Source: Blautia sp. (GTDB taxonomy: Bacteria > Bacillota > Clostridia > Lachnospirales > Lachnospiraceae). From it: a stretch of DNA of 40,950 nt. The stretch lies in contig JAMPAC010000022.1 in the NCBI GenBank assembly GCA_023667395.1, forward strand, positions 1-40,950. The letters run 5' to 3'. The notes beneath the pieces were generated by a model. It had not been told where the DNA came from and searched no databases. It was given only the letters and a program-made list of their open reading frames with translations. This document shows, in pieces, positions 14,533 to 40,218 of the stretch. Each line of letters opens with the position of its first letter. Position 1 is the stretch's first letter. The position numbers and the translations under genes are program-made.

Positions 14533-14540
14533 CAATTCCA

Positions 14541-14595
14541 AATCCATGAAAAATGGCATTCGAATTTTTTCGAATGCCATTTTTCGTGGATTTTT
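14541..14595 (+). terminator. terminator after the ABC-LytTR-DUF3021 operon
   Basis: A 17-bp perfect stem (14548-14564 with 14569-14585) plus a further 5 bp (14541-14545 with 14588-14592), followed by a run of T. Its right arm overlaps the left inverted repeat of the recombinase segment (14583-14608). Confidence 0.8.
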
Positions 14596-14608
14596 GTAAT
14601 CTGCGAAA
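14583..14608. repeat. left inverted repeat of a predicted invertible segment
   Basis: A 26-base sequence whose reverse complement recurs at 15966-15991 with one mismatch (base 6). The left copy also forms a local dyad, TTTTGTAAT and ATTACAAAA around the 7-base spacer CTGCGAA, as expected for a tyrosine-recombinase core site. Confidence 0.8.
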
Positions 14609-14677
14609 TTACAAAACCGCATATGTGCAACCCTGCCGCATCTGGCAGGTACAACGTTCCCAGATATCAACTATGCA

Positions 14678-14706
14678 AGTATAGTTCTTTTTTTCATTTT
14701 TGTCAA
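14678..14706 (-). promoter_or_regulatory. consensus outward promoter inside the invertible segment
   Basis: On the minus strand, TTGACA (14706-14701) and TATACT (14683-14678) are spaced by exactly 17 bases. It is a near-perfect sigma-A promoter. As read here it fires leftward into the terminator region. After inversion of 14583-15991 it would fire rightward across the repeat into the cpsB-like gene, with a leader of about 165 bases. Confidence 0.75.
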
Positions 14707-14728
14707 TAGTATTTGAAAATTGTATAAA
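14700..14728 (+). promoter_or_regulatory. recombinase promoter, overlapping the outward promoter
   Basis: TTGTCA (14700-14705) and TATAAA (14723-14728) have a 17-base spacer and would drive the recombinase gene at 14807. Its -35 box shares bases with the -35 box of the divergent outward promoter, so the two should compete. Confidence 0.65.
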
Positions 14729-14773
14729 AAATCGGTTCAATAATTTTGGTACCTGCTTTTACAAAAAGCTGTT

Positions 14774-14793
14774 AGTGGTCAAAAAAGTGGTCA
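14774..14793 (+). repeat. two AGTGGTCA repeats near the recombinase start
   Basis: AGTGGTCA occurs at 14774-14781 and 14786-14793, and a third copy lies at 15914-15921 at the other end of the segment. All are in the same orientation. They could be arm-type or accessory binding sites. Confidence 0.3.
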
Positions 14794-14806
14794 AGGAGGA
14801 AAGGAC

Positions 14807-15934
14807 ATGGCAAGAAGAGGAGAAAACATCAGGAAACGCAAGGACGGACGGTGGGAAGGGCGATACCGGTATACGGACAGCGCCGGTACAGTCCGTTCCC
14901 GGTCGGTCTACGCGAGGACTTACAGGGATGTGAAAGAGAAATTGTCCACAGAAAAAATGAAATGCAAAGGAACCGGCCGACTGAAAGGGACGACAGATAC
15001 AGGGGCGGACAGCATAACGTTTGATGACAGCGCTAATGAATGGTTCGAATGCATGGGAAAGAAAAGAAAACATTCCACCTGCGTCAAATACCGTAACATC
15101 TATGACATCCATGTAAAACCCATCATCGGGAACATCCGGATCAGCGAAATCTCCCAGGATAAGATCAATTCCATATTTCCCCATGACATTGCGAAATCAG
15201 ACAGCCTACTCAGAAGCATTTCATGCGTGACGAACCAGATCATGAAATATGCCGCGGATCGTTACCAGGTCACATGCCGCCTGGCTGCGTGTGACAGGAT
15301 AAAAAAAGTCCGCAGGCCGGTAGAGGCGCTTTCACGGTCAGAGCAGGCGAAACTCATACACTACCTGTACAGTTTCCCGGACATTTATAAGACCGGGATC
15401 ATCCTGTGCCTGTCCACCGGGCTGAGGCTTGGGGAGGTCTGTTCGCTGAAATGGGAGGACATCGATTTCGAAAACAGGATCCTGTGTGTCAACCGCACTG
15501 TCCAGCGGATTTCCGTACAGGATCGGAATTCCAAAACGGCTCTGGTGGAAAGCGAGCCAAAAAGCTGTTTTTCAAAACGTGAAATCCCCATTACCGACGA
15601 CCTGGTCAGGCTGCTGCAGCCCTATCGCGAAAACGGCGGATATGTACTGTGCGGAAATAAGCCCATGGAACCGAGGACATACCAGAACAGGTTCATGAAA
15701 TACCTGGAAGCCGCCGGGATAGGGAAAACCAATTTCCACATCCTGCGCCATACCTTTGCAACGAACTGCATTGACAGCGGGACGGATATCAAGAGCCTGA
15801 GTGAGATCCTGGGGCACTCTGATGTGAGGATAACGCTGAACAGGTATGTACATCCCACGACCGAGACGAAGCGCCGCCATATGGACACGCTGGCAGTCAT
15901 TTATGGTCAATATAGTGGTCAGGCCTGTGGATGA
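14807..15934 (+). CDS. tyrosine recombinase (phage-integrase family), predicted DNA invertase
   Basis: The 375-residue protein has an N-terminal Arg/Lys-rich arm-binding segment (KRKDGRWEGRYRY), a SAM-like core-binding domain (about 65-160), and a C-terminal catalytic domain. The active-site residues are visible: Arg in STGLRLGEVCSLKWED, His-x-x-Arg in HILRHTFAT, His in LGHSDV, and the nucleophile Tyr in LNRYVHP. The ATG follows AAGGAGGAAAGGAC. It lies between two 26-bp inverted repeats, so it most likely inverts its own segment rather than excising it. No excisionase or phage genes are nearby. No clear terminator separates it from the capsule operon. Confidence 0.92.
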   Translation: MARRGENIRKRKDGRWEGRYRYTDSAGTVRSRSVYARTYRDVKEKLSTEKMKCKGTGRLKGTTDTGADSITFDDSANEWFECMGKKRKHSTCVKYRNIYDIHVKPIIGNIRISEISQDKINSIFPHDIAKSDSLLRSISCVTNQIMKYAADRYQVTCRLAACDRIKKVRRPVEALSRSEQAKLIHYLYSFPDIYKTGIILCLSTGLRLGEVCSLKWEDIDFENRILCVNRTVQRISVQDRNSKTALVESEPKSCFSKREIPITDDLVRLLQPYRENGGYVLCGNKPMEPRTYQNRFMKYLEAAGIGKTNFHILRHTFATNCIDSGTDIKSLSEILGHSDVRITLNRYVHPTTETKRRHMDTLAVIYGQYSGQACG

Positions 15935-15965
15935 ATCCTTTTAAATAAGGATATCAAGCGGTCGT

Positions 15966-15991
15966 TTTCGCAGATTACAAAAATCTACGAA
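15966..15991. repeat. right inverted repeat of the predicted invertible segment
   Basis: Reverse complement of 14583-14608 with 25 of 26 bases identical. It lies 78 bases before the capsule operon's first ATG (16069). The outer arm (AACGACCGC in reverse complement) does not match the palindromic arm of the left site. Confidence 0.8.
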
Positions 15992-16068
15992 CATATTATG
16001 TCCCAAATATCACAATGGAATCACGGAAAATTCATGAAAGGACATTGTTGGCCTGGAGCAGGGGGAAT

Positions 16069-16809
16069 ATGTTTTTCAGGGAAAAAAGATCGGGAAAGAT
16101 GACGGACATGCACTGCCATATCCTGCCTGCGGTGGATGACGGCGCCCGGGACATGGGACAGACGATGGACATGCTCCGGATCGCGCAGGGCGAGGGGATA
16201 ACGGCAATGATCGTGACCCCGCATTATAAGGAAGGACGCCATAACGCCAGCCCCGCCACCATCATGGAAAGGATCCGGGAAGTGCAGGAGGAAGCGGAAA
16301 GGCAGGGCATCTTCATCCCATTGTACCCGGGGAATGAGATCTTCTATTTTGACGGACTGCCGGAACGGCTGGAAAATAATGAAGTCCTGAGCCTGAACCA
16401 TACGGACCGTGTGCTGGTGGAGTTCCCGCCCACAGCGGATCATATTTATATCCGCAATGCCCTTGACAGTGTCAGGGCGGAAGGATATGTGCCGGTTCTT
16501 GCCCATGTGGAGCGGTATGGGTGCATGGTACGGGACTGGAAGCGCGTGAGGGAACTGAAACAGATGGATGCGGAGATCCAGGTCAATGCCGCCAGCGCCT
16601 GCGGGCAGCTGGGAAAGCAGGTTCAGAGATTCATCCATGACATCCTGCAGGAAAACCTGGTCGATTACGTGGGGACGGACGCCCACGATGCCCATGGCAG
16701 GGCGCCGCAGTTCCGCAAATGCCGCCAGGCGCTGGCAAAAAGATTTGACGCATCGTACATAAACGAGATTTTTTATGAAAATGCATTAACAATAATAAAC
16801 GCGGAGTAA
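16069..16809 (+). CDS. cpsB: CpsB/CapC-family PHP-type protein tyrosine phosphatase
   Basis: This manganese-dependent phosphatase would dephosphorylate the capsule tyrosine kinase CpsD. The PHP metal ligands are visible: DMHCHILPAVDDG, VTPHYKEG, YPGNEIFY, LAHVERY and VGTDAHD. Length is 246 residues from the ATG at 16069, chosen for GGAG ten bases upstream; ATG 16015 lacks a ribosome site and ATG 16099 has a weak one but gives the N-terminus closest to relatives. It is the first gene of the capsule operon and sits just beyond the right inverted repeat. A promoter would reach it from inside the invertible segment. Confidence 0.9.
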   Translation: MFFREKRSGKMTDMHCHILPAVDDGARDMGQTMDMLRIAQGEGITAMIVTPHYKEGRHNASPATIMERIREVQEEAERQGIFIPLYPGNEIFYFDGLPERLENNEVLSLNHTDRVLVEFPPTADHIYIRNALDSVRAEGYVPVLAHVERYGCMVRDWKRVRELKQMDAEIQVNAASACGQLGKQVQRFIHDILQENLVDYVGTDAHDAHGRAPQFRKCRQALAKRFDASYINEIFYENALTIINAE

Positions 16810-16816
16810 GAGGGAT

Positions 16817-17590
16817 ATGCAGGAACAAAATAGCAATGTGATCGAGATCGATCTGGAAGAACTTTTAGGGCTGGTGCTACACCGGCTGTGGCTGATACTG
16901 CTGTGCGGCGTGGCCACGGGGCTGGCGGCGTTTGCGGTGAGCGCTTTCCTCATCACGCCCAAATATGAATCGACGACAGGCATCTATGTCATGAGCAGGC
17001 AGGACAGTTCCAATTTTTCCTACAGTGACGCGCAGTTTTCCACGCTGCTCACAAAGGACTATGAGAAACTGATCACCTGCAGGTATGTGCTCGAGACCGT
17101 GATAGAGCAGTGCAGCCTCCCGGATGAATTTGAGGAACTGGAGGACCGCGTCACGGTGGAGAACCTCACGGACACGAGGATCATATACATCACCGTGAAG
17201 GACACCAACCCGGCGATGGCGCAGTACATAGCCAACAGCATCAGGGAAGTGGCCTCCGAGCAGATCACGGAGGTCACGGACGTGGAGGCGGTGAACATAG
17301 TGGAACTGGCAAACCTGCCGAAAGAACCGTCGGAGCCCTCCGTCCTGATGTGGACGGTTCTGGGGGCTGCCCTGGGGGTGTTCCTGAGCCTGCTGGTACT
17401 GATCGTCCGGTATGTGGCGGATGATACGGTCAAATCTTCCGAGGATGTGGAGAAATACCTCGGGTGGGGGACGTTGGCGCTGATACCGGTGATAGAGGAA
17501 GAACCCGGCGAGAGGGGCGCGGCAAGGAAGAATACCGTCAGGAGGAGACCTGCCCCGGCCAGGACGAAGGATGCGGAAGCAGTGAATTAA
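16817..17590 (+). CDS. cpsC: Wzz/CpsC-type polysaccharide chain-length and kinase-adaptor protein
   Basis: The 257-residue protein has two membrane helices: one near residues 25-50 (LWLILLCGVATGLAAF) and one near 176-197 (LMWTVLGAALGVFLSLLVLI). Between them is an extracellular Wzz domain. The Pro-rich approach to the second helix (LPKEPSEPS) is typical. The C-terminal tail is cytoplasmic and would activate the kinase encoded next. The ATG follows AGAGGGAT. It lies seven bases after cpsB. Confidence 0.9.
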   Translation: MQEQNSNVIEIDLEELLGLVLHRLWLILLCGVATGLAAFAVSAFLITPKYESTTGIYVMSRQDSSNFSYSDAQFSTLLTKDYEKLITCRYVLETVIEQCSLPDEFEELEDRVTVENLTDTRIIYITVKDTNPAMAQYIANSIREVASEQITEVTDVEAVNIVELANLPKEPSEPSVLMWTVLGAALGVFLSLLVLIVRYVADDTVKSSEDVEKYLGWGTLALIPVIEEEPGERGAARKNTVRRRPAPARTKDAEAVN

Positions 17591-17603
17591 AGAGGGGAAA
17601 ACC

Positions 17604-18326
17604 ATGCAGGAATTTGAGATCAGACAGGCGAACCTGGATTTCAGGGCAAAAGAGGCTTTCAAGACATTAAGGACAAACATAGAGTTCTCCGGGGATGACA
17701 TCAAGGTGGTCGCACTGACATCGGCGACGCCGAACGAGGGGAAATCCTCCGTGAGTTTCGAACTGGCGCTGTCCTTTGCCCAGGCGGGCAGGAAGACCAT
17801 ACTGATAGACGCGGACCTGCGTAAATCGGTGATGCGTTCCAGATATAAGAGGGGGAAGATCAAATACGGGCTGACGAACTACCTGGCGGGAAAACAGGAA
17901 TTCTCGGACGTGACCTGTACCACGGATGTCCCCAATTTCTATATGGTATTCGCCGGACCCGTACCGCCGAATCCCAGTGAACTGCTGGGGAACAGCAGGT
18001 TCAGCGCGATGATAGCGGAGTGCAGGGAGGTGTTCGACATGGTCATCATCGACACGCCGCCGGTGGGCAGCGTGATCGACGCGGCGATCATATCCAGGCA
18101 CTGCGATGGCGTTGCCGTCGTCATGGAGATGGGGGCGATCAGCTACCAGTTCGCCCGGAGGATCAAGGAACAGCTGGAGGTGGCCAACGCAAAGATCCTG
18201 GGCGTGGTGCTTAATAAGGTGGATATGACCGGGAAAGGGTATTACGGAAAATACTACGGCAAGTATTACGGGAAGTACTACGGAAAATATTACGGTAAGT
18301 ATTATGGGAATTATGGGAATGAGTAG
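17604..18326 (+). CDS. cpsD: CpsD-type BY-kinase (tyrosine-protein kinase)
   Basis: The 240-residue cytoplasmic kinase shows Walker A (TSATPNEGKSS, Lys47), Walker A' (ILIDADLR) and Walker B (VIIDTPP). The C-terminus is an autophosphorylation tail made of five tandem YYGK units followed by YYGNYGNE, encoded by an approximately 12-bp tandem repeat at about 18238-18311. The tail holds a dozen tyrosines. It works with CpsC in the membrane, and CpsB should reverse its phosphorylation. The repeat could change length by slippage in whole codons. Confidence 0.93.
   Translation: MQEFEIRQANLDFRAKEAFKTLRTNIEFSGDDIKVVALTSATPNEGKSSVSFELALSFAQAGRKTILIDADLRKSVMRSRYKRGKIKYGLTNYLAGKQEFSDVTCTTDVPNFYMVFAGPVPPNPSELLGNSRFSAMIAECREVFDMVIIDTPPVGSVIDAAIISRHCDGVAVVMEMGAISYQFARRIKEQLEVANAKILGVVLNKVDMTGKGYYGKYYGKYYGKYYGKYYGKYYGNYGNE
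18238..18311 (+). repeat. 12-bp tandem repeat coding the YYGK tail of CpsD
   Basis: TATTACGGAAAA-type units recur about five times with synonymous differences (C/T and A/G at third positions), giving a perfect YYGK amino acid repeat. Synonymous divergence shows that selection keeps the protein repeat. Confidence 0.75.
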
Positions 18327-18832: not shown

Positions 18833-19063
18833 TGAAAAAAAGAACGGATTATTAAAAAAGGGTATTGCACATTGCGGCATCCTGTGGTAGACTTATGCCA
18901 TAAAGAGGAAGAATCAGTCGCATTTTCGTGGAAATCCGCGGTTCAAAGTGCATGTTCAGGCATTTCGCCACAGATTCAACTTTTTAAAGAGGATAGTGGC
19001 GGAACCGGGAACCTGCAGAAACCATCTTTTTCCGCCGCTGTGAAGACAGAAGGAGGAAAACGG

Positions 19064-19975
19064 ATGGGAAGACCACGGAACCCATGGCAAGGCGGCCATG
19101 ACATCCCACAGAAGGAACTGGAATCATACCCGGATGTGTTCGCGGATATCCTGAACGCACTGGTATACGGGGGAGAGCAGGTGGTAGACCTGCGGCGTCT
19201 CAGCCAGGCAGGGACGGAAACCCGCTACAGGGACCAGGAGCGCAGGCTGAGGAACCAGTATGAGGACCTGGGCAGGTATGAGACGGACGGGGAAGGCAAT
19301 GCGAGGATACTGTACCTGCTGGCCAACCAGTCGCGGACGGACAGCAGGATGCTGCTGAGGAAATGCGGATATGTCGGCGGTTATTACAGGGGACAGTATG
19401 AGCAGCAGATGAGGGAAATCTGCCCGGTCATGGAGCTGGTGCTGTACTGGGGAAGGAAACGATGGCGGACACCGCGTTCCATGCGGGAATTTTTCGAAGG
19501 GAAAGGCATCCATCCCAGGGCGTGGAGGTACATGGACAATGAAAGGATCCATGTGTTCGAGATGCGCCACCTGCCCAGGGAAGTCATAGGGAGGTTCCGG
19601 AGTGACATGCGGATCGTCCTGGAATATCTGGCGGATGAGGATGGAGTGGATCAATTGGAACAGGAAGTCAGCCACCCGGCGGCGCTGCTGGAACTCATGC
19701 AGGCATTGTCGAGGGATGACCGGTATGGGACAGTGATAGAAAACCTCATGGGCGAAGAGGGGGCAGGGGAAGGAGGGAACTGGACCGTGTGCAAGCTGAT
19801 GGATAAGTATTGGGGAGGCGGGCTGCAGCAAGGGCGTCAGGAGGGCATAAAAGCGCTGATCTCCACATGCCATGAATTAGGCGTAACATTTGAAACAACG
19901 GCGGACAAGGTAAAGGAAAAATATGCGCTGGATGATTCCAGGGTAAAGGAAAGCATGGCGTTGTACTGGCAATGA
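19064..19975 (+). CDS. Rpn/YhgA-like PD-(D/E)XK nuclease-family protein
   Basis: The 303-residue protein has the pattern of the recombination-promoting nuclease (Rpn, transposase_31-like) family: YPDVFADILNALVYGG at the start, RILYLLANQSRTDSRM, then LLRKCGYVGGYYRGQY. A variable middle and a C-terminal helical part (LQQGRQEGIKALISTCHELG) follow. In relatives the central strand reads IENQT; here it is LANQS, so the catalytic Glu appears replaced by Ala. The ATG at 19064 follows AGAAGGAGGAAAACGG; longer frames upstream have no ribosome site. A perfect 22-bp inverted repeat brackets it and a strong terminator follows. It may be a mobile unit, possibly nuclease-dead. Confidence 0.75.
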   Translation: MGRPRNPWQGGHDIPQKELESYPDVFADILNALVYGGEQVVDLRRLSQAGTETRYRDQERRLRNQYEDLGRYETDGEGNARILYLLANQSRTDSRMLLRKCGYVGGYYRGQYEQQMREICPVMELVLYWGRKRWRTPRSMREFFEGKGIHPRAWRYMDNERIHVFEMRHLPREVIGRFRSDMRIVLEYLADEDGVDQLEQEVSHPAALLELMQALSRDDRYGTVIENLMGEEGAGEGGNWTVCKLMDKYWGGGLQQGRQEGIKALISTCHELGVTFETTADKVKEKYALDDSRVKESMALYWQ

Positions 19976-20004
19976 CCGCCAGACCATAAAATAGTAGAGG
20001 GAAT

Positions 20005-20052
20005 AAAACTCCCGGTGTAAGATATGCAGTTGTCTTATGCCGGGAGTTTTTT
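20005..20052 (+). terminator. terminator after the Rpn-like gene, inside the capsule locus
   Basis: An 11-bp stem pairs 20005-20015 with 20040-20050, followed by TT; the long loop holds the right 22-bp repeat, which adds a TAAGA/TCTTA pairing. It would cut transcription coming from cpsB-cpsD unless there is read-through or a new promoter downstream. Confidence 0.7.
20013..20034. repeat. right 22-bp inverted repeat flanking the Rpn-like gene
   Basis: Perfect reverse complement of 18811-18832. It lies within the loop of the terminator. Confidence 0.75.
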
Positions 20053-20127
20053 GGTTGGAAAATATCAGGAGTATGACCGGTCATGGTTATTTTGGGAGTA
20101 TAGGAAACAGGTCAGAGAGGTGTAGGT

Positions 20128-20991
20128 ATGGGGAACTTTAAAATATTTAGTACATTCAGGAGCAGGTTGGAAAAGAATAAAAGATCAAGGAATCTCCTGA
20201 TGTTTTTGAGAAAAATCGGTGCGGTCAATATTTTGCATTTTTTTGAAGATTTATTCCGTTCAAAAAAGAGTTGTGATGATTTTAATAAATTTTGTAAAGA
20301 TAACGCAGAAAAATTAAAAAATATATTTGACATGTTAGATGATGAAAAATCAAAAAGGGTATTTGAAAACATATTACGATACCGGGCAAGCTACAACCGG
20401 AAATACCTGAGGGGAATCATTGATGGCGGCCAGTACTTTGACAAAGATATCATGCGGTTTTCCGACGATGAAGTCATGGTGGATTGCGGTGCATACATAG
20501 GAGACACAATCGAGGAATTTGTGAAGAGGAACAGTGAATACAAACATATTTATGCATTGGAACCCGATAATAATATCATTGCTTTCCTGAAAGAGAATGC
20601 AAGATCAGCAAAAGACAGGCTTACTATTTTTCCGGTAGCTGCCTGGAGCAAAAAAGAAACTTTATCATTTGCTGATGATGGAATTGGAACGGGGCATGTA
20701 GGGCGTGGGGGGGGGCGCCGTATAGAAGCAGATTCAATCGATAATCTGTTAAGTGGTGCATATGTTTCCTTTATAAAGATGGATATTGAAGGGGCAGAAA
20801 TGGAAGCCTTGACAGGCGCCTGCAGGACAATACAAGAAAATAAACCCAAGCTGGCCATATGCATCTATCATAAATATGAGGATCTGTACAGGATACCAAT
20901 GTATGTAAAGAGCCTGGTTCCAGAGTACAGGATATATATCAGGCATTATTCCGATACCCCATCGGAGACAGTAATGTATGCGATAACCTGA
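20128..20991 (+). CDS. FkbM-family methyltransferase with an in-frame G9 tract
   Basis: The 287-residue protein has a SAM-binding FkbM domain in its second half: VMVDCGAYIGDTIEEFV (motif I), IYALEPDNNI, FIKMDIEGAEMEAL, then KLAICIYHKYEDLYRIP. The first 100 residues are AT-rich in DNA and helical. It would O-methylate a sugar of the surface polysaccharide. Nine consecutive G at 20707-20715 encode GGG in GHVGRGGGRR and are in frame here. Slippage by one base would truncate the protein after the catalytic core begins. Ribosome site GAGAGG precedes the ATG. Confidence 0.88.
   Translation: MGNFKIFSTFRSRLEKNKRSRNLLMFLRKIGAVNILHFFEDLFRSKKSCDDFNKFCKDNAEKLKNIFDMLDDEKSKRVFENILRYRASYNRKYLRGIIDGGQYFDKDIMRFSDDEVMVDCGAYIGDTIEEFVKRNSEYKHIYALEPDNNIIAFLKENARSAKDRLTIFPVAAWSKKETLSFADDGIGTGHVGRGGGRRIEADSIDNLLSGAYVSFIKMDIEGAEMEALTGACRTIQENKPKLAICIYHKYEDLYRIPMYVKSLVPEYRIYIRHYSDTPSETVMYAIT
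20707..20715 (+). repeat. poly-G tract (G9) in the first FkbM gene
   Basis: Nine G in a row inside coding DNA, in frame. The only other tract of this length in the window is at 34511-34519 in another FkbM-like gene. The next longest G runs are six. Confidence 0.85.
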
Positions 20992-21011
20992 TGAATTTTT
21001 GATCAAATAAA

Positions 21012-21036
21012 AGTATTGCAAATAAGGTCAGAGAGG
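21012..21036 (+). repeat. direct repeat copy 3 of the 25-bp junction sequence
   Basis: Matches 18329-18353 at 23 of 25 positions. It supplies the ribosome site for the initiating transferase, and may represent the original cpsD-to-transferase junction. Confidence 0.6.
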
Positions 21037-21043
21037 TGCGTGT

Positions 21044-21799
21044 ATGGAGAACAGCTATGGCGCGAACGCGATGGATCTGGGAATGGCAGGTTCCGGTGTG
21101 GAACCGGAAAAGGAGCCGTCTGTCTTTTATGTGATAGATGGAACCGCTGATTCAGGGCGGCAGACGCGGGAGATCCTCGGGGGGAAAGTTGGATATCGAA
21201 TAGTGAAGAGACTGTTTGATATTGTCCTTTCGATCCTGGCAATGGTCATTTTAGCGCCAGTCTTTCTGATAACGGCAATTGCAATCAAGATGAATGACGG
21301 CGGACCGGTTATACATAAAAGATATTGTGTTGGGAAGAATGGAAAAGCTTTTCCCATGTATAAGTTCAGGAGCATGGTGGTAAACGCGGATGAATTGATC
21401 GATCGCTTTCCGGAAGAGATAAAGGCACAATATTTGCAGGGAATAAAACTGGCGGATGACCCAAGGATCACAACCGTGGGTAAAGTGATACGCAAGGCAA
21501 GCATTGATGAACTGCCACAGCTGTTTAATGTGCTGAAAGGCGAGATGAGCATTGTCGGCCCGAGGCCGGTTATAGAAAGGGAAGTTCAGGCATATGCAGG
21601 CAAGGCAGGCGTTTTATTGAGCGTCAGGCCGGGCATCACGGGAACCTGGCAGGTATATGGAAGAGGGGATGCCGCTTATCTGAGCAGGGAATCCCAAAAC
21701 CTGCAGCTGGCATATGTGGAAAATATGGGTTTCCTGTATGACATCAAAATTTTAGGGATGACATTCAAAAAGGTCATCACGGGCGAGGGAGCAAGATGA
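21044..21799 (+). CDS. initiating phosphoglycosyl transferase (bacterial sugar transferase family)
   Basis: This 251-residue monotopic enzyme would transfer a sugar 1-phosphate to undecaprenyl phosphate and start the repeat unit. A hydrophobic re-entrant helix lies near residues 58-80 (FDIVLSILAMVILAPVFL). Then follow YKFRSM, KLADDPRITTVGK, the catalytic Asp-Glu dyad in ASIDELPQLFNVL, and MSIVGPRP. The C-terminal RPGITGTWQVYGRG is typical. The N-terminal 50 residues lack the extra four-helix bundle of WcaJ, so it is the short PglC-like form. It overlaps the next gene by four bases (ATGA). Confidence 0.92.
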   Translation: MENSYGANAMDLGMAGSGVEPEKEPSVFYVIDGTADSGRQTREILGGKVGYRIVKRLFDIVLSILAMVILAPVFLITAIAIKMNDGGPVIHKRYCVGKNGKAFPMYKFRSMVVNADELIDRFPEEIKAQYLQGIKLADDPRITTVGKVIRKASIDELPQLFNVLKGEMSIVGPRPVIEREVQAYAGKAGVLLSVRPGITGTWQVYGRGDAAYLSRESQNLQLAYVENMGFLYDIKILGMTFKKVITGEGAR

Positions 21800-22503
21800 A
21801 AGCATTTTTACTGGCAGCCGGGTTCGGAACCAGGCTTCGGCCAATAACGGATACGATACCCAAATGCCTGGTCACCATTAAGGACAAGCCGCTATTGGAA
21901 TGGTGGTTTGAACTGTTCCGGAAACATGGGATTGATGAGGTGCTGGTCAATACACACTATATGGCGGATCAGGTTGAAGCGTTTGTAAACGGGTACACTG
22001 CGGTACACAGGGATATAAAAGTGACGCTTTTTTATGAGAAAGAACTCCTGGGAAGCGGGGGCACCGTGAATGCGAACAGGGATTTCATTGAAACAGGGGA
22101 AGATTTCCTGATATGTTACGCGGATAACCTGACAGATGTAAACCTGCAGGAACTGATCAATGTGCACCGGGGAAACGGGTCGGTTCTGACCATGGCACTG
22201 TTCCATACGACCATGCCGGAGCAATGCGGGATTGCCGCAGTGGATAAAAACGGGCTGATAACGGAATTTGTGGAAAAACCGGAAAGTCCGGAGGGCAATC
22301 TGGCCAATGCGGGGATATATGTCGCCAACCAGATGCTGTACCAATATTTCGAAAATGACGGTTTCTGTGATTTTGGGAGGGATGTCCTGCCAAGGCTTGT
22401 GGGGATCATGTACGGGTATGAAATACATGCCTGGCTCAGGGACATAGGCACACTGCAGAATTTACAGTCAGCAAGAGAGGAATGGGCATATGATCATCTC
22501 TAA
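21796..22503 (+). CDS. hddC: heptose-1-phosphate nucleotidyltransferase (HddC-like)
   Basis: The 235-residue protein is a Rossmann-type sugar-phosphate nucleotidyltransferase: LLAAGFGTRLRPITDTIPKC (GxGxRx5Tx3PK), YADNLTDV, and EFVEKPESP. In the context of hddA, gmhB and gmhA next to it, the best role is transfer of GMP to D-glycero-alpha-D-manno-heptose 1-phosphate, giving GDP-heptose. By sequence alone a mannose- or glucose-1-phosphate specificity is also possible. Overlaps hddA by 14 bases. Confidence 0.82.
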   Translation: MKAFLLAAGFGTRLRPITDTIPKCLVTIKDKPLLEWWFELFRKHGIDEVLVNTHYMADQVEAFVNGYTAVHRDIKVTLFYEKELLGSGGTVNANRDFIETGEDFLICYADNLTDVNLQELINVHRGNGSVLTMALFHTTMPEQCGIAAVDKNGLITEFVEKPESPEGNLANAGIYVANQMLYQYFENDGFCDFGRDVLPRLVGIMYGYEIHAWLRDIGTLQNLQSAREEWAYDHL

Positions 22504-23458
22504 GACACCGTTGAGGATCAGTTTCGCAGGCGGAGGCACGGATATTGACAGTTATTATAAGACCGGTTACGGCGCAGTGGTGAGCGCAGCAATCAACAAG
22601 CACGTATATGTGACAGTACACAGACGGTTTGACAATTCCCTGCGCGTGGGCTATACCAAGACCGAGATCGTAAACCATGCGGATGAATTGGAGCATGACA
22701 TTGTGAAAGCCTGTCTGGAAATGGTGGGTATAGATAATGGTGTTGAGATCACTTCCATCGGTGAAGTCCCGGCCGGTACGGGGATGGGTTCCTCCGGCGC
22801 CCTGACAGTGGGGCTTTTGAACGCATTATACAGCCATGTCGGCAAGAGGCTTTCCTCCTATGAGTTGATGGAGAAAGCGTGCCAGATAGAAATAGACATC
22901 CTGAAACAGCCGATTGGCAAGCAGGATCAGGCCGCAGCGGCTTTTGGAGGCCTGAATTACTTCAAATTCCGTGCAGACGGCAGTGTGGGGCAGGAACGGA
23001 TAGAACTGTCGCAGGAGGACTTTAAGAAACTGGAATCCAGGCTGCTGGTATTTTATACAGGACAGACACATTCGGCGGGCGCCATCTTAAGGGAACAGAA
23101 AAGCAGTACGGGCAGTCACCTGAAAACGATGGACGAGATGCGGGACCAGGCGGACCAGTTAAAGGAGAAGCTTATGAAAGACGGTTTCGGCGCATATTTT
23201 GGCGGGATGCTGCAGCAGGCATGGGAGAGGAAGAAGCTGCTGTCCAGCGGGATCAGTAACCTGGAGATTAACAGGATGTATGACTCGGGGATACAGGCAG
23301 GCGCTCTTGGGGGGAAACTCCTGGGAGCCGGGGGAGGCGGATTCCTGCTCTTCTATTGTGAGGAAGACAAGCAGGAACAGTTGAGAAAGGCGCTTGGACT
23401 ACAGCAGCTGTATTTCAGGGTAGCCAGGTATGGAAGCAGGGTGGTTTATTTTGAATAA
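22490..23458 (+). CDS. hddA: D-glycero-alpha-D-manno-heptose 7-phosphate kinase
   Basis: The 322-residue GHMP kinase phosphorylates heptose 7-phosphate at C1 in the GDP-heptose route. Visible motifs are KTPLRISFAGGGTDIDSYY, the ATP loop VPAGTGMGSSGAL, QDQAAAAFGG, and the C-terminal KLLGAGGGGFLLFY. The opening pattern and length fit HddA rather than mevalonate or galactokinase. The ATG lies inside the end of hddC after AGAGAGGAATGGGCAT. It is followed by gmhB with a small overlap. Confidence 0.9.
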   Translation: MIISKTPLRISFAGGGTDIDSYYKTGYGAVVSAAINKHVYVTVHRRFDNSLRVGYTKTEIVNHADELEHDIVKACLEMVGIDNGVEITSIGEVPAGTGMGSSGALTVGLLNALYSHVGKRLSSYELMEKACQIEIDILKQPIGKQDQAAAAFGGLNYFKFRADGSVGQERIELSQEDFKKLESRLLVFYTGQTHSAGAILREQKSSTGSHLKTMDEMRDQADQLKEKLMKDGFGAYFGGMLQQAWERKKLLSSGISNLEINRMYDSGIQAGALGGKLLGAGGGGFLLFYCEEDKQEQLRKALGLQQLYFRVARYGSRVVYFE

Positions 23459-24041
23459 CGCAAGACCCCGGAAAGCGGTCTTCCTTGACAGGGATGGGGT
23501 CATTAATAAATGCGCGGCGCCGCACTGTTATGTGTCCAGGTGGGAGGATTTCGAGTTCCTGCCCGGGGCCGTTGAAGGGATCAAATTGTTGAATGACGCC
23601 GGATACCTGATATTTCTTATCAGTAACCAGAGGGGGATCGCGAGGGGATTATATACTATTGAAGAGGTTCAGACCCTGCATGAAATGATGTGCGGATACC
23701 TGGAAAGGATGGGGGCGCATATTGACGGAATCTATATATGTCCCCATAACTATGGGGAATGTGACTGCAGGAAACCGGGTATCGGACTTTTCAGGCAGGC
23801 GGAGCAGGAGTGGATGATCGATAAGGAAAAGTCCTGGTGTATTGGAGATTTTGAGAATGATATCATGGCAGGGATTGCTTATGGGGTTAAAACGATCCTG
23901 ATAGGAGATGAAACTGAAAAGTACGGGCAGGACTATACTTTCAGCAGTTTACAGGTGGCGGGCAAATACCTGGCAGGCAAAACCGCTGATCTTAAGGGGC
24001 ATAAGGAATGGATTACAGCAAGACAATTCGGGATTATATAA
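23451..24041 (+). CDS. gmhB: D-glycero-D-manno-heptose 1,7-bisphosphate 7-phosphatase (copy 1)
   Basis: The HAD-superfamily phosphatase (196 residues) has the nucleophile motif FLDRDGVIN, LISNQRG, the zinc-type cysteine cluster around CPHNYGECDCRKPG, and CIGDFENDIMAG. It removes the C7 phosphate from heptose bisphosphate. The start is taken as TTG 23451, with AGGGTGG at 23438-23444; ATG 23430 in the same frame is an alternative. It overlaps hddA and gmhA. A second, AT-richer homologue is encoded at 28778. Confidence 0.88.
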   Translation: MNNARPRKAVFLDRDGVINKCAAPHCYVSRWEDFEFLPGAVEGIKLLNDAGYLIFLISNQRGIARGLYTIEEVQTLHEMMCGYLERMGAHIDGIYICPHNYGECDCRKPGIGLFRQAEQEWMIDKEKSWCIGDFENDIMAGIAYGVKTILIGDETEKYGQDYTFSSLQVAGKYLAGKTADLKGHKEWITARQFGII

Positions 24042-24580
24042 ACAGAGAGATTCAGGTACTGCAGGCACTTGATCCGGATGGGATCAACGAAGTACTTAAT
24101 GTGCTTGAAGCAGCCAGGGAAAGAAATGCGGATATCTATATCTTTGGCAATGGAGGCAGCGCGGCGACAGCAAGCCACTACGCGGGGGATTTTAATAAAG
24201 GGGTCTCTGCGGAAACGAAAGGGAATAAGTACAGGTTTCATTGTCTGTCAGATAATATCCCGACCCTGATGGCGATTGCCAATGATATTGCTTATGAGGA
24301 AATCTTTCGTGAACAACTGAAAGGGAGACTCCGGGCGGATGACCTGGTGATCGGTATATCAGGAAGCGGAAATTCAGTCAATGTGATTAATGCGGTTCAG
24401 TATGCAAAAGATATTGGCTGCAAGGTAATCGGTATTACGGGATATCATGGCGGCAGGCTGAAGCAGCTGGCGGATTATCATCTGGACGCAGGGGTGGAAG
24501 ACATGCAGATATCGGAAGACGTACATATGATGTTCGATCATTTGATGATGTCAGCGCTTAGAAATGCTGAGGCGGTGTAG
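24008..24580 (+). CDS. gmhA: phosphoheptose isomerase, SIS domain (copy 1)
   Basis: GmhA converts sedoheptulose 7-phosphate to D-glycero-D-manno-heptose 7-phosphate. The 190-residue protein is one SIS domain: IYIFGNGGSAATASHYAGDF, LMAIANDIAYEEIF, VIGISGSGNSVNVINA and a C-terminal EDVHMMFDHLMMSAL. It overlaps gmhB copy 1 by 34 bases and is the last gene of the GC-richer heptose block. Base composition changes right after it. Confidence 0.9.
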   Translation: MDYSKTIRDYINREIQVLQALDPDGINEVLNVLEAARERNADIYIFGNGGSAATASHYAGDFNKGVSAETKGNKYRFHCLSDNIPTLMAIANDIAYEEIFREQLKGRLRADDLVIGISGSGNSVNVINAVQYAKDIGCKVIGITGYHGGRLKQLADYHLDAGVEDMQISEDVHMMFDHLMMSALRNAEAV

Positions 24581-24584
24581 GAAG

Positions 24585-25685
24585 ATGCGCACACAGAAAG
24601 TCATAAGGGTATTGCAGATTCCAGGGAAAATGGATTATGGCGGAGTCTCGGCAGTACTTATGAATTATTACAGGCATATTGATAAATCTAAAGTACAGTT
24701 TGATTTTGCGGTAAACATTGATTGTGCGTTTCCTCAGCAGAACGAGTTAATAGCTGGCGGAAGTAAATTATATCGCGTGTCTTCTTTGAAAAATGTGCTT
24801 AGGTATATTCATGATGTTTATAAAATAATTAAAACCGAAAAATATCAGATTGTCCATGCGCATATGAATTCCTTAAATATTTTTCCGTTGCTTGCGGCAA
24901 AACTGGCAGGCGCACAAATACGGATCTGCCATAATCATTCTACAGATGCGGAAGGGGAATTTATAAGAAATACTGCCAAAAATATTTTTAAGATGTTTTC
25001 AAGAATTTTCCCGACACACTATGCAGCATGCTCTGAATATGCGGCAAATTGGTTATATGGGAAAAGGTTTTGCAAACGGCATCCGGTAAAGATCATCCAT
25101 AATGGGATTGAGTTGGGACGTTTTGCTTATAATGCGGAAGTTCGTGATGAAGTGCGCAGGCGATATGGCATGGGGGAAAAGTTTGTAATTGGAAACATAG
25201 GACGATTTGTATTTCAGAAAAACCATGATTTACTGATAGATATTTATAATGCAATATACAGGGAAAATAGAGACACGGTACTTTTGTTAGTTGGAGAAGG
25301 AGAACTACTGGAAGAAGTTAAAACAAAAGTTCGAAAATACGGTTTGGAAAATGCTGTTATCTTCACGGGAGTTGAAAAAGATACGAGTAAGCTGTATCAG
25401 GCAATGGATGTATTTGTACTGACATCACGCTATGAGGGGCTTTCCGTGACAACTGTTGAAGCACAGGTCAACGGGCTTCACTGTGTTGTATCAGGCGCAG
25501 TACCGGAAGAGGCGATAATTTCCGGCAATGTGGAACGAGTTGAAGACTATTCAAATATTAAGGAATGGACAAAAAAAATTATGGATAAAAAGAACAGGGT
25601 TTTAGGAAAATCAGAGGCAATAAAATTGTATGATATTATAAGTTGTGCGCAAGAACTGGAAAAGTATTATGGTGATTTGGTTTGA
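24585..25685 (+). CDS. glycosyltransferase family 1 (GT-B)
   Basis: The 366-residue GT-B enzyme has an N-terminal acceptor domain starting VLQIPGKMDYGGVSAVLMNY and a C-terminal Glycos_transf_1 domain: IIHNGIELGRF, IGNIGRFVFQKNHDLLIDI, LLLVGEGELLEEV, VFVLTSRYEGLSVTTVEAQ. It is EpsF/CpsF-like. Donor and acceptor are unknown; GDP-heptose from the genes just upstream is a candidate. ATG 24585 is preferred over an in-frame ATG at 24564 inside gmhA. The DNA is clearly AT-richer from here on. Confidence 0.88.
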   Translation: MRTQKVIRVLQIPGKMDYGGVSAVLMNYYRHIDKSKVQFDFAVNIDCAFPQQNELIAGGSKLYRVSSLKNVLRYIHDVYKIIKTEKYQIVHAHMNSLNIFPLLAAKLAGAQIRICHNHSTDAEGEFIRNTAKNIFKMFSRIFPTHYAACSEYAANWLYGKRFCKRHPVKIIHNGIELGRFAYNAEVRDEVRRRYGMGEKFVIGNIGRFVFQKNHDLLIDIYNAIYRENRDTVLLLVGEGELLEEVKTKVRKYGLENAVIFTGVEKDTSKLYQAMDVFVLTSRYEGLSVTTVEAQVNGLHCVVSGAVPEEAIISGNVERVEDYSNIKEWTKKIMDKKNRVLGKSEAIKLYDIISCAQELEKYYGDLV

Positions 25686-26758
25686 AAATATTAATTGAAG
25701 TAATGCATGGACTTGGAGATGAGGTTTGCGCACTTCCGATGATTGAAAATATATGTCTGGCGTATCCCGATGCGGATATTACGGTGCTGGTAAATTCAGA
25801 AGGCGGAAAAGAAATTATTGAGCATGGAAATTTTAAAGCCAGCAAAACTATTATTTTAAATGTGCATAAGGACAAAAAGTTTAAAGTGGTCAGAGAATGC
25901 AGGGATATGCGGCGTAATAAGTACGATATGGGGATATCCTGTGCGCTCACTTCTATGACAAAAGCACATTTGTTTATGGGCGCAATAGCGCCTGAGATAA
26001 AAGCGGGAATCCAGTTTTCCAGGAAACAGGACTTTCAGGCATTAAACGATAGGATGCATTTTGTAGATGCAAATCTTGAAATATTAAAAGATTTGAACAT
26101 TTCATTAACTGTGACATCACCAAGGTTGATCGCGAATCCTTTATTAGTGACATATTTTCGTAGTGTAATGGATACGGGGAATCAGAAAAAACGAATTGGC
26201 GTATGTATAGGTAATGCAGACGCCACTTATAAATATAAGTACATAAGAAAGAAACCGGTATACGCAAAAGGGTGGGGAATTTCAAATATGACGCTGCTAT
26301 GTGAACGGCTACTGGATAATGAATATTCACTGTTTCTAATCGGTGGCAAGCAGGAAATTCCGCTTTTCAAACAGATGCCTGAAAAGATAAAAAGCAGATC
26401 TGTATCATTTGTTGGAAAAACAACGGTTGCGGAATCAATGGCAGTTGCAAGTTTATGCGATGTTCTGGTTGGCGTAGACACGGGAATGCAGCATATAGCA
26501 GATGCATTAGGAGTTAAGACGGTTTCGATTTTTGGGCCTACAAATCCGCATACACGAGGAGCATATTCAAAAAATGCAAGGTTTGTAGAGTGTGAGAAAG
26601 AATGTAAGTATTGCTTTGGCACAGCCAGATATACACGATGCGAAGATAGAAAATGTCTTAAGGAAATAACGGTGGAGCATGTATTTAAAATAATTACAGA
26701 AATACTGAAAGGGGAGGCCAAAGCAAAAGATGGAATTGAAGAGACAGATCATGAGTAA
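25682..26758 (+). CDS. glycosyltransferase family 9 (heptosyltransferase-like)
   Basis: The 358-residue protein has the GT9 layout: MKILIEVMHGLGDEVCALPM at the N-terminus, and DVLVGVDTGMQHIADALGVK with SIFGPTNP in the C-terminal nucleotide domain. Many GT9 enzymes are heptosyltransferases that use ADP-heptose, and hldE follows directly. A cysteine-rich tail (CEKECKYCFGTARYTRC) is also found in the second GT9 here. The start is TTG 25682, overlapping the preceding stop in TTGA. Overlaps hldE by 29 bases. Confidence 0.86.
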   Translation: MKILIEVMHGLGDEVCALPMIENICLAYPDADITVLVNSEGGKEIIEHGNFKASKTIILNVHKDKKFKVVRECRDMRRNKYDMGISCALTSMTKAHLFMGAIAPEIKAGIQFSRKQDFQALNDRMHFVDANLEILKDLNISLTVTSPRLIANPLLVTYFRSVMDTGNQKKRIGVCIGNADATYKYKYIRKKPVYAKGWGISNMTLLCERLLDNEYSLFLIGGKQEIPLFKQMPEKIKSRSVSFVGKTTVAESMAVASLCDVLVGVDTGMQHIADALGVKTVSIFGPTNPHTRGAYSKNARFVECEKECKYCFGTARYTRCEDRKCLKEITVEHVFKIITEILKGEAKAKDGIEETDHE

Positions 26759-28199
26759 ATCGATTCTTGTCGTCGGAGATGTGATGCTTGACACCTATTA
26801 TTATGGAGATATAGAGCGCATTTCACCGGAAGCTCCAGTGCCGGTTTTTAGAAAGAAATCAGAGCGGTATGTTTTAGGGGGAGCGGGAAATGTGGCTGCT
26901 AACCTGATTGCAGCGGATCAGCAGGTATCTGTGATGGCCGTGACAGGTGAAGATGAAAATGGAAATAGATTGAGAGAGATTCTTAATGAGAAAAATATCA
27001 ATACTGATCTGTTAGTTGCACTTGATAGGAATACCACAGTCAAAACGAGATTCCTTGCTGCAAATAATCAACAAGTGCTTAGGCTGGATATTGAAGATAC
27101 AAATGAACTAAAAGAAGAAGAATATAAAGTATTATTAGATGCTTTTGAGGAGAAAATAAGTAAATTTGAAATCATCCTGATGTCCGATTATATGAAAGGC
27201 CTGCTTGGCCGTGATTTTACACAGTGCATCATACGGATGGCAAAGGCGCGTGATATTCCGGTAGTGATCGATGTAAAAGATTCACAGGCTGCTAAGTATA
27301 AGGATGCATTTTTAGTAAAGCCTAATTTAAATGAATTAAAAAATTTAACGGGGATGTCAATAGAAACAGATGATGAAATTATTGACGCGTCCGGGAAACT
27401 TAGAGAAATGTGTGAGTGTAGGTACGTTCTTACAACCTGTGGAGCAAGAGGTATGGTGCTGGTTAGCGCTGAGGAATCATTTTTTTTAAAGTCCATTCAA
27501 CAGGAAGTATTTGATGTGACCGGTGCTGGAGATACGGCAATTGCTTATCTGGCTGCGTGTATGGCAAATGGTTTTTCTGTAATGGAGGCAGTTGAAATTG
27601 CCAACTACGCGGCTGGGATTCAGGTGGGGAAAACAGGGACATCCTCTGTTTGCTGGAGGGAAGTCTGGGAATACATTATGGATCAGAAACGAATGACTTT
27701 GTACAAAATTCTGGAAGAAAAAGACGTCGCTGTTTTTCGGAAAGAGCATATGGGGCAGAAAGTGGTTTTTACAAATGGATGCTTTGATATTTTACATACC
27801 GGTCATATCCGCTATTTGCGGGAAGCGGCAAAGCTGGGGGATATTCTGATCCTTGGCCTTAATAGTGATGCATCGGTAAAAAGACTGAAAGGATCTGAAC
27901 GGCCGATCAATAATGAACTGGATAGGGCAGAAATATTATGTGCCCTTGAATATATAGATTATGTTGCAATATTTAACGAAGATACACCGTTGGAATTGAT
28001 CAAGAAGATTCAACCGGATGTGCTGGTAAAGGGTGGCGACTACAGTAACGAATATGTGATAGGAACAAAAGAAGTAGAAGCTTGGGGAGGAAAATTAGTA
28101 TTGATTCCTTTTGTAGAAGGAAAATCCACTACCAATATTATTAAAGTAATAGAGAAGACTTTCCAGGACAATGAGAAAAGAGCGGGTTGTGATGAATGA
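26730..28199 (+). CDS. hldE: bifunctional heptose 7-phosphate kinase / heptose 1-phosphate adenylyltransferase
   Basis: The 489-residue fusion has a ribokinase-type kinase (1-325) with SKSILVVGDVMLDTYY, GGAGNVAANL, and the catalytic FDVTGAGDTAIAY. The C-terminal nucleotidyltransferase (about 340-480) has VFTNGCFDILHTGHIRYL (HxGH) and LKGSERPIN. It makes heptose 1,7-bisphosphate and then ADP-D-glycero-beta-D-manno-heptose. Full-length HldE is typical of Gram-negative LPS pathways. GGGGAGG is 12 bases before the ATG at 26730; ATG 26751 is an alternative. Confidence 0.94.
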   Translation: MELKRQIMSKSILVVGDVMLDTYYYGDIERISPEAPVPVFRKKSERYVLGGAGNVAANLIAADQQVSVMAVTGEDENGNRLREILNEKNINTDLLVALDRNTTVKTRFLAANNQQVLRLDIEDTNELKEEEYKVLLDAFEEKISKFEIILMSDYMKGLLGRDFTQCIIRMAKARDIPVVIDVKDSQAAKYKDAFLVKPNLNELKNLTGMSIETDDEIIDASGKLREMCECRYVLTTCGARGMVLVSAEESFFLKSIQQEVFDVTGAGDTAIAYLAACMANGFSVMEAVEIANYAAGIQVGKTGTSSVCWREVWEYIMDQKRMTLYKILEEKDVAVFRKEHMGQKVVFTNGCFDILHTGHIRYLREAAKLGDILILGLNSDASVKRLKGSERPINNELDRAEILCALEYIDYVAIFNEDTPLELIKKIQPDVLVKGGDYSNEYVIGTKEVEAWGGKLVLIPFVEGKSTTNIIKVIEKTFQDNEKRAGCDE

Positions 28200-28764
28200 T
28201 ATTATCATGGACAGCATCCAGGACAACATTACAGTAAAAAAAGAACTTCTTAAAAACAATGTACTTTTGGATACAGTATCTGATTTGTCGGATGAAATGG
28301 TGAAATGTATAAGAAATGGCGGGAAGATTATACTTTGTGGAAATGGCGGTTCTGCTTCCGATGCGTTACATTTCGCAGGAGAAATTGTTGGACGATTTCA
28401 AAAGGAGCGTCCTGCATGGCCAGCCATAGCGCTTAATGCCGATGTGGCAACCATGACTGCCATAGCAAATGATTATGGCTACGAAGATTTGTTTGCGCGC
28501 CAGGCGGAAGCGCATATAAAGGAGCAGGATGTTTTTATTGGCATCAGCACAAGCGGAAATTCCGAGAATGTTTTACGGGCAGTGGAAGCGGCAAGAAAAA
28601 AGGGTGCCAGGACAGCAGCATTTCTGGGAAAAGATGGGGGGAAAATCGGCAAGATGGTTGATTTTCCGGTGATTGTTCCCAGCAAGGTAACTGCACGGGT
28701 GCAGGAATGCCATATTATGTTGATTCACATCATATGCGAGATTTTGGAAAAAAAACTTTCATAG
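28192..28764 (+). CDS. gmhA: phosphoheptose isomerase, SIS domain (copy 2)
   Basis: A second GmhA, about 190 residues, closer to the enterobacterial type than copy 1: IILCGNGGSASDALHFAGEI, GRFQKERPAWPAIALNAD, IANDYGYEDLF, FIGISTSGNSENVLRA and TAAFLGKDGGKIG. It makes heptose 7-phosphate for HldE. The ATG at 28192 has a weak site (GAGCGGG); ATG 28171 in the same frame overlaps hldE more. The two GmhA proteins are clearly diverged, not a recent duplication. Confidence 0.9.
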   Translation: MNDIIMDSIQDNITVKKELLKNNVLLDTVSDLSDEMVKCIRNGGKIILCGNGGSASDALHFAGEIVGRFQKERPAWPAIALNADVATMTAIANDYGYEDLFARQAEAHIKEQDVFIGISTSGNSENVLRAVEAARKKGARTAAFLGKDGGKIGKMVDFPVIVPSKVTARVQECHIMLIHIICEILEKKLS

Positions 28765-28777
28765 AAGAGGGAAACAG

Positions 28778-29347
28778 GTGAACAAGGCAATTTTCCTGGA
28801 CAGGGATGGAACGATTAACGTTGAGAAAAAATATCTTTACAAAATAGAAGACTTTGAGTTTCTTCCCGGAGTGATTGAAGGATTAAAAATACTTCAGCAG
28901 AAGGACTATCTTCTGATCATCCTTACAAACCAGTCGGGTATTGGAAGAGGGTATTATACAGAAGAGGATTTTGTGAAATTGAACGATTGGATGTTACAGG
29001 AATTAAATAGAGAAGGAGTATTGATTACGAAGGTTTACTATTGCCCGCATCTTCCCACGGCAAAGATGACAAGGTACAGAAAAATCTGCACTTGCAGAAA
29101 ACCTGCTCTGGGAATGTATGGGCAGGCAATAAAGGAATTTGACATTGATATCTCTTTAAGTTATGCAATAGGCGATAAGATACGAGATTGTTCGATCTGT
29201 GAAAAAATGGGATGCAGAGGATTTATTATTGCTGAAAATGAAAATTCAAAAGTTATAGAAGCTGTTAAAGGTGGAAAGTGTAGAAATATCAGGTACGAAA
29301 CGGACTTGCTGGCATGTGCTAAAAGGATAGCGCAGATGGAGGGATAA
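28778..29347 (+). CDS. gmhB: heptose 1,7-bisphosphate 7-phosphatase (copy 2)
   Basis: The 189-residue HAD phosphatase has IFLDRDGTINVEKKYL, FLPGVIEGL, LTNQSGIGRGYY, the Cys/His metal cluster YYCPHLPTAKM to ICTCRKPALGM, and AIGDKIRDCSICE. It acts on the beta-bisphosphate made by HldE. The GTG start at 28778 follows AGAGGGAAACAG. It lies between gmhA copy 2 and hldD, so the ADP-heptose pathway is complete and contiguous. Confidence 0.9.
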   Translation: MNKAIFLDRDGTINVEKKYLYKIEDFEFLPGVIEGLKILQQKDYLLIILTNQSGIGRGYYTEEDFVKLNDWMLQELNREGVLITKVYYCPHLPTAKMTRYRKICTCRKPALGMYGQAIKEFDIDISLSYAIGDKIRDCSICEKMGCRGFIIAENENSKVIEAVKGGKCRNIRYETDLLACAKRIAQMEG

Positions 29348-29349
29348 CA

Positions 29350-30315: not shown

Positions 30316-30329
30316 CAGGGAAGATTAGT

Positions 30330-31514: not shown

Positions 31515-31548
31515 GATATGATTCAAAAAAACAAATGGGGAGAGACTG

Positions 31549-34024: not shown

Positions 34025-34066
34025 GGCAATGTAGCCTGCTGTTGAAAGAGAGAAAGAGGTATAGGC

Positions 34067-34910: not shown

Positions 34911-34957
34911 AGATAAACCCGGTATTGCAATGAAAAATCTGTACTTGGAGGTTAAAA

Positions 34958-35887: not shown

Positions 35888-35923
35888 AATGTTGAAACGA
35901 TTGGATAAGGAGACAGGAACCTG

Positions 35924-37930: not shown

Positions 37931-37946
37931 AAGGAACTTGTTGATT

Positions 37947-40156: not shown

Positions 40157-40218
40157 AAGGTATGGATATTATGAAAAACTGAGTTACATCAAATACTTAA
40201 TAGATTGGAGGAAAGACC

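Follow-up and report, generated by a model that had tools for sequence, protein, structure and literature searches.

The DNA analysed here (the window, a stretch of 40,950 nucleotides from Blautia sp.) carries a large polysaccharide locus. Its first gene is preceded by a segment of about 1.4 kb that is bounded by inverted repeats and filled by a recombinase gene, without conjugation or excision genes. The features of this segment and its surroundings are as follows.

14540..14593, no strand: long terminator-like hairpin with 25-bp arms and a 4-nt loop, just outside and overlapping the left repeat
14582..14608, plus strand: left recombination site, 27-bp dyad TTTCGTGGAT-TTTTGTA-ATCTGCGAAA
14678..14706, minus strand: outward promoter-like site TTGACA-17-TATACT with 11/12 consensus bases, at present directed left, away from the capsule genes
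14777..14793, plus strand: left arm-type repeat pair GGTCA-N7-GGTCA, just before the ribosome-binding site (found in 22/27 modules)
14807..15934, plus strand: tyrosine recombinase of the Tn1549/lambda-integrase type with a predicted N-terminal arm-binding domain, 375 aa
15905..15921, plus strand: right arm-type repeat pair GGTCA-N7-GGTCA, within the 3' end of the recombinase gene
15966..15992, minus strand: right recombination site, inverted 27-bp dyad with the same 7-bp spacer as the left
16069..16809, plus strand: first capsule gene, CpsB/CapC family (PF19567), presumed target of the switched promoter
16817..18326, plus strand: capsule chain-length and tyrosine-kinase genes (Wzz and Wze type)
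18872..40755, plus strand: remainder of the polysaccharide locus (glycosyltransferases, heptose and phosphonate pathways, Wzy_C, LicD)

To the left of the segment, genes for a LytTR regulator and a DUF3021 protein are followed by the hairpin at 14540-14593. To the right, the CpsB protein most likely starts at ATG 16069 and not at the first ATG (16015), as this start fits the homologues at two related loci (L011 and L031), which are 246 aa each; the distance of 78 bases between the repeat end and the first capsule gene, given in the initial annotation, is correct with this start. The region 18872..40755 is presumably transcribed as a single unit. The window positions 21796-28764 encode a heptose pathway in a Gram-positive capsule locus (HddC-, HddA-, GmhB-, HldE- and GmhA-like proteins), in which only the HldE-like adenylyltransferase domain (TIGR02199) and general HAD/histidinol-phosphatase domain models exceed the NCBIfam cut-offs. 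Family-9 glycosyltransferases are located at 25682 and 31549, and a Transposase_31 (YhgA-like) protein is encoded within the capsule locus at 18872-19975. Phosphonate tailoring functions occupy 34958-40156 (LicD, PEP mutase, Fe-ADH and phosphonopyruvate decarboxylase); both the PEP mutase, which is fused to nucleotidyltransferase-like domains (TIGR02320), and the phosphonopyruvate decarboxylase (TIGR03297) score above cut-off. The polysaccharide of this locus may carry phosphonate.

The recombinase gene (14807-15934) lies wholly within the repeat-bounded segment 14583-15991 and encodes a complete Phage_integrase protein (PF00589, E 1.9e-29). Residues R207, K252, H311, R314, H337 and Y347, which we take to be the catalytic residues, are invariant in 19 aligned sequences (the window protein and 18 relatives). 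The nearest solved structure is Tn1549 Int. The fold predicted at residues 8-53 is strand-strand-strand-helix, and the family profile aligns to full-length lambda Int, beginning at lambda Int residue 15. The alignment between the lambda Int chain 1z1g and the recombinase model begins at model residue 7, but has an rmsd of 15.8, and the Pfam Tn916 domain gives a weak match (E 0.12) in 1/19 members. Modelling and profile comparison point to an integrase-type recombinase with an N-terminal arm-binding domain.

The repeats at 14583-14608 and 15966-15991 form a 26-nt inverted repeat with 25/26 matching positions (96% complementary) separated by 1357 nt; the left copy is TTCGTGGATTTTTGTAATCTGCGAAA and the right copy is its complement with one change. 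The pair has a score of 23, as compared with a top score of 10 among 10 dinucleotide shuffles, and the probability that an equally good pair arises by chance within 3.5 kb is negligible (about 1e-7, which is our own rough estimate and not a computed value). The repeat search, the shuffles and the PF00589 match thus confirm the initial view of a complete tyrosine recombinase bracketed by a 26-bp inverted repeat. Each repeat is a 27-bp dyad consisting of 10-bp arms and a 7-bp spacer, and the dyad consensus derived from relatives is roughly TTTCGYRGAT-N7-ATCTRYGAAA. A dyad had been claimed for the left copy; it is real, but is not peculiar to that copy, being conserved in both copies and in relatives. 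An alternative core dyad in the left copy (TTGTAAT-CTGCGAA-ATTACAA) was rejected, as by eye it is absent from the right copy and from the paralogue, unlike the 27-bp dyad.

The same genome contains a second cassette, which precedes another cpsB locus and has a recombinase 84% identical to that of the window; its spacer is TTTTATA (TTTTGTA in the window) and is identical in both its copies. At up to 2 mismatches, the core pattern occurs in this genome only at three recombinase genes. The third recombinase (C184, L004) is more distant and has a matching dyad pair, and a fourth (C64, L003) has flanking inverted repeats of another sequence. Relatives of the recombinase are present in 16/397 genomes of the family at E <= 1e-80 and in 32/138 genomes of the genus at E <= 1e-60, the own genome being counted in both. 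The E <= 1e-80 family set includes 19 loci outside the own genome, and at 17 of them a repeat pair lies near the recombinase gene; at L120 the copies of a matching pair are 3.9 kb apart, and L124 has just one site. These 19 loci and 8 chosen ones make up a first subset of 27 loci, in which 25 modules have repeats. Forty further loci were fetched, one of which (L178) was omitted because it lies on the contig of L031, and a repeat pair was found in 30 of the 39 examined. The 19, the 39 and another 19 chosen from the own genome, a broader 80-locus set and a plasmid collection constitute 77 Lachnospiraceae-type loci; the members taken from the 80-locus set were picked partly for repeats already seen. 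No repeat pair was found by the rule used in 13 of these 77.

In the set of 80 loci, 22 have a repeat score of at least 18, and the fraction depends on recombinase identity: 6/8 at 40% or more, 16/42 at 30-40% and 0/30 below. The cassette is thus linked to this recombinase branch and is not a general feature of integrases. In Enterococcus, 11/19 related loci have repeats, which differ in sequence from those of the window; the enterococcal set used in the larger comparison (15/15 with repeats) was selected because repeats were present. Several related recombinases in Enterococcus (L039, L041-L046 and L065) are without detectable flanking repeats and may have another role; L039 and L041-L045 have a conserved gene neighbourhood in common. 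Viral contigs contain only distant relatives (12 loci, 23-29% identity). In the phage collection, identity is at most 41.5% among the best 10 of 54 matches, and in the plasmid collection at most 37.0% among the best 10 of 14. A record labelled 'Bacteriophage sp.' (L153) was dropped as a duplicate, having the repeats and flanks of L129.

The dyad is matched at up to 5 mismatches by 54/64 Lachnospiraceae-type modules with repeats, and the spacer is the same in both copies in 53 of these 54, whereas only 30 of 2862 comparisons between loci match; the 54 modules have 43 different spacer sequences. In the first subset, spacer identity is 25/25 within modules versus 10/600 between loci. Mismatches between the two copies of dyad-type modules are all located in the arms, except for one base of L206. 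Identity in the spacer with mismatches in the arms is what strand exchange within the spacer would demand, and strict spacer identity would predict which pairs of sites can recombine.

A putative promoter directed outward from the segment lies between the left site and the recombinase gene. By itself, this site proves little, because a 1.6-kb scan of the window gave 2 promoter-like sites in total as compared with a shuffle mean of 2.4; its conservation counts for more. An outward site with at least 11/12 consensus bases is present in 16/25 modules with repeats of the first subset, and an inward one in 1/25 (shuffles: mean 0.15, maximum 2). In the larger sets, an outward site of score 11 or more is present in 30/64 Lachnospiraceae-type and 2/15 enterococcal modules, versus inward sites in 1 and 0, respectively. 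Some members of the family have an outward promoter that is weak or escapes recognition (9/25 modules of the first subset are below 11/12). Judged by consensus and conservation, inverted repeats bracket a candidate promoter ahead of the target operon.

In the present orientation, the hairpin at 14540-14593 would stop transcription from the outward promoter. Its placement recurs in relatives: of 39 modules with an assigned target, 21 have a terminator-like site by the repeat on the far side from the target and 2 have one on the target side, with 1.8 expected from shuffles. Target genes were assigned by similarity, and four target-labelled modules (L060, L154, L193 and L206) were omitted from this count. 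In the 6 modules facing their target, the corresponding numbers are 4 and 0. The window scan revealed no terminator-like site between the recombinase gene and cpsB, suggesting that 'off' may mean 'low'. An arm-type repeat pair near the 3' end of the recombinase gene was found in 21/27 modules, similarly to the pair upstream of the gene, and the arm repeats are presumably bound by the recombinase N-terminal domain. A candidate conserved leader RNA hairpin (CCTGCC...GGCAGG) was rejected; by eye it is present in the paralogue and absent in L031.

Evidence for inversion comes from a pair of loci in a related genome (G367). L114 and L115 have matching flanks (92% over 2497 bp and 93% over 222 bp) and a module of 1428 bp in common (95%), but the module lies the other way round between these flanks, and the orientation changes exactly at the 26-bp repeats; variants in the outer half-sites remain linked to the flanks. 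L114 and L115 are two loci in one genome, not one locus in two states. This sister pair supports the earlier expectation of inversion rather than excision at such repeats. More distant pairs have the target side on opposite sides of the module, mostly judged from target-side similarity alone. The outward promoter points towards TnpB-like targets in 5 modules and away in 9, towards HA-helicase targets in 1 and away in 5, and towards cpsB targets in 0 and away in 8, the last being the orientation of the window. Both orientations, which the initial annotation proposed to look for among related genomes, are seen in one sister pair (L114/L115) and not in the cpsB-type modules, which lie one way in 8/8 cases.

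A search of the own genome using the left junction found no assembled copy in the other orientation. In a search for flips within Enterococcus raffinosus, L147, L148 and L149 share one orientation, and the flanks of L150 and L151 match no others. As the cpsB modules and the three E. raffinosus records are each in one orientation, flipping may be rare or biased. A single orientation in all these data would be expected if flips to ON are uncommon in the populations sampled, if the capsule is kept off by selection or if flipping has been lost in this subgroup. L206 occupies the tree branch next to the cpsB-type L209 and L212, and its module faces a sugar-transferase gene without a cpsB match; this may be a glycan locus in the opposite state, although there is a one-base difference between its two spacers.

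The cassettes neighbour capsule, pilus, WxL, sortase or TnpB-like genes in Lachnospiraceae, Oscillospiraceae and Enterococcus. Targets include cpsB capsule genes, an HA-domain helicase with DegT and a sugar transferase, sortase B, an OmpR-type regulator with a WxL/MucBP protein, pilin and accessory SecA2/SecY2. The initial framing as a Lachnospiraceae capsule switch is too narrow, because cassettes of this family also lie by other surface operons, in Lachnospiraceae, Oscillospiraceae and enterococci. In a tree of 75 recombinases (L153, L061, L067, L036, modules without repeats and proteins shorter than 300 aa were omitted), well-supported branches force 3 changes for the cpsB association and 5 for the TnpB-like one, where a change is a gain or a loss. 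These changes indicate that the cassette changed targets, or targets changed cassettes, several times.

A helicase with several HA (helicase-associated) domains heads invertible polysaccharide operons at L112, L114, L115, L117 and L213 (identified by Pfam scan for L115 and by similarity for the other four). At L149, on an E. raffinosus megaplasmid, a related recombinase with a flanking inverted repeat precedes a helix-turn-helix gene and accessory SecA2/SecY2. TnpB/Cas12f-like proteins are encoded by the first gene beside the cassette at L113, L121, L125, L126, L127, L118, L122 and L111. PF07282 was found in both of those scanned (L113 and L122), and NCBIfam guided_TnpB is below cut-off in L113 and L118. 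The RuvC-III position is K, S or R, and not D, in 8/8, and by eye the RuvC-I motif seems lost. From these sequence features, the cassette-adjacent proteins may be TldR-like, that is, TnpB homologues with a dead nuclease, and subject to phase control.

The segment in the window is very probably a self-contained invertible promoter switch ahead of the capsule operon (we infer the activity of the window copy, the strength of its promoter and the ON/OFF meaning of the two states). The integrase-type tyrosine recombinase would act on the pair of inverted 27-bp core sites, with strand exchange in the 7-bp spacer, and so invert about 1.4 kb that contains a strong outward promoter as well as the recombinase gene itself. 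As the segment now lies, the promoter would direct transcription left into the terminator, leaving the capsule OFF or low. Once inverted, it would drive transcription rightward across the right core site and on into cpsB and the rest of the capsule operon (ON), while the recombinase gene would read towards the terminator. As the promoter is directed away from the capsule genes into the hairpin, the window is most likely in the OFF or low state.

If inversion occurs but the capsule genes are transcribed in the present state by read-through from the recombinase promoter, the switch would change the level or coupling of expression and not be a clean on/off device. Such read-through is in keeping with the lack of a terminator-like site between the recombinase stop codon and cpsB, with the present orientation of 8/8 cpsB-type modules and with a possible rightward promoter seen by eye (TTGTCA-17-TATAAA, 14700-14728). 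However, the second hexamer of this site is poor in the paralogue and the conserved promoter is the outward one, which makes this explanation unlikely; the scan also omitted the rightward site, although its rule (T at the sixth base) excludes such sites by design. The shared orientation of the cpsB-type modules (8/8), together with the one mismatch between the window repeats, would also fit a cassette that inverted formerly and whose window copy no longer flips. This is less likely still: the recombinase is intact and has its key residues, the spacers are identical, the promoter is conserved and the genome contains another copy that is just as intact.

The segment could alternatively be a mobile element with terminal inverted repeats, inserted by its tyrosine recombinase and located before capsule genes by chance. 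The closeness of the recombinase to Tn1549 Int among solved structures and the occurrence of cassettes at many unrelated loci, with 3 tree changes (gains or losses) for the cpsB association, would agree with this. Against it, the core sites are inverted and not direct, the target gene begins within about 260 bp of the repeat in most target-labelled modules, a terminator-like site is present on the other side in 21/39, spacers are identical within modules and L114/L115 differ by inversion and not insertion; this origin is thus highly improbable. The invertible promoter switch is the reading that we retain.

More broadly, and tentatively, it is quite possible though short of probable that these cassettes form a portable family in which Tn1549-like integrases became self-inverting promoter switches, with arm sites retained at both ends of the recombinase gene that could set inversion bias or repress the recombinase. 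On this view, surface operons of Lachnospiraceae, Oscillospiraceae and Enterococcus (capsule, pilus and others) would have acquired such switches on repeated occasions, as would operons whose first gene encodes a TnpB-like protein that has lost its nuclease residues. The window switch would provide a concrete, testable mechanism of phase variation for capsules in Gram-positive gut commensals. The recombinase, core dyad, outward promoter, arm repeats and terminator make one recognizable unit that can be searched for in any genome, and the natural inverted pair allows the ON/OFF claim to be checked without engineering.

In the open-licence literature, judged by title or the start of the abstract, no description of this cassette was recognized. 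At least one published survey of invertible promoters discarded invertible regions with coding sequences inside or overlapping them (PMC8748976, in part), so that such cassettes may have been overlooked, as far as that part of the survey tells. To the initial annotation, the present analysis adds the switched promoter, its present state, the second capsule cassette and the integrase-type arm repeats.

In the Hin/fljBA flagellar switch of Salmonella, a serine invertase gene is located inside the inverted segment with an outward promoter for the target operon. The window cassette is similar in having both the recombinase gene and the outward promoter inside the flipped segment, but its recombinase is an integrase-type tyrosine recombinase with an arm-binding domain (predicted) and paired arm repeats, and its target is a polysaccharide operon. 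RecV of Clostridioides difficile is a tyrosine recombinase that acts in trans on separate invertible switches; the window shares the recombinase type and a clostridial invertible switch, but has one recombinase per cassette, inside the cassette. The Bacteroides recombinase Mpi, which inverts capsule promoters, is a serine recombinase. Bacteroides capsule invertons likewise place an invertible promoter ahead of polysaccharide genes, and their switched gene is a UpxY-type antiterminator (PMC11892184, in part); the window differs in that the tyrosine recombinase is inside the segment and the first gene is CpsB/CapC and not a UpxY antiterminator. Inverton group 139 of hCom2, from Clostridia, is linked to a tyrosine-type recombinase family that is an enriched neighbour in the non-regulatable orientation (PMC11892184, in part). 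Compared by that partial description and not by motif, it resembles the window in its host class and in repeats with a nearby tyrosine-type recombinase/integrase.

The cassette can also be compared with Tn1549/Tn916-type integrases (Tn1549 structures 6EMY-6EN2). The core of Tn1549 Int consists of two 11-bp imperfect inverted repeats flanking a 5-bp crossover region (PMC5871717, in part), and the dyads of the window and its relatives have an equal 27-bp plan, in geometry only. Tn1549/Tn916 elements carry conjugation and excision genes and the window segment has neither; its sites are inverted and the spacers are identical within a module. As the core sites in the window are inverted, recombination between them would invert and not excise the segment.
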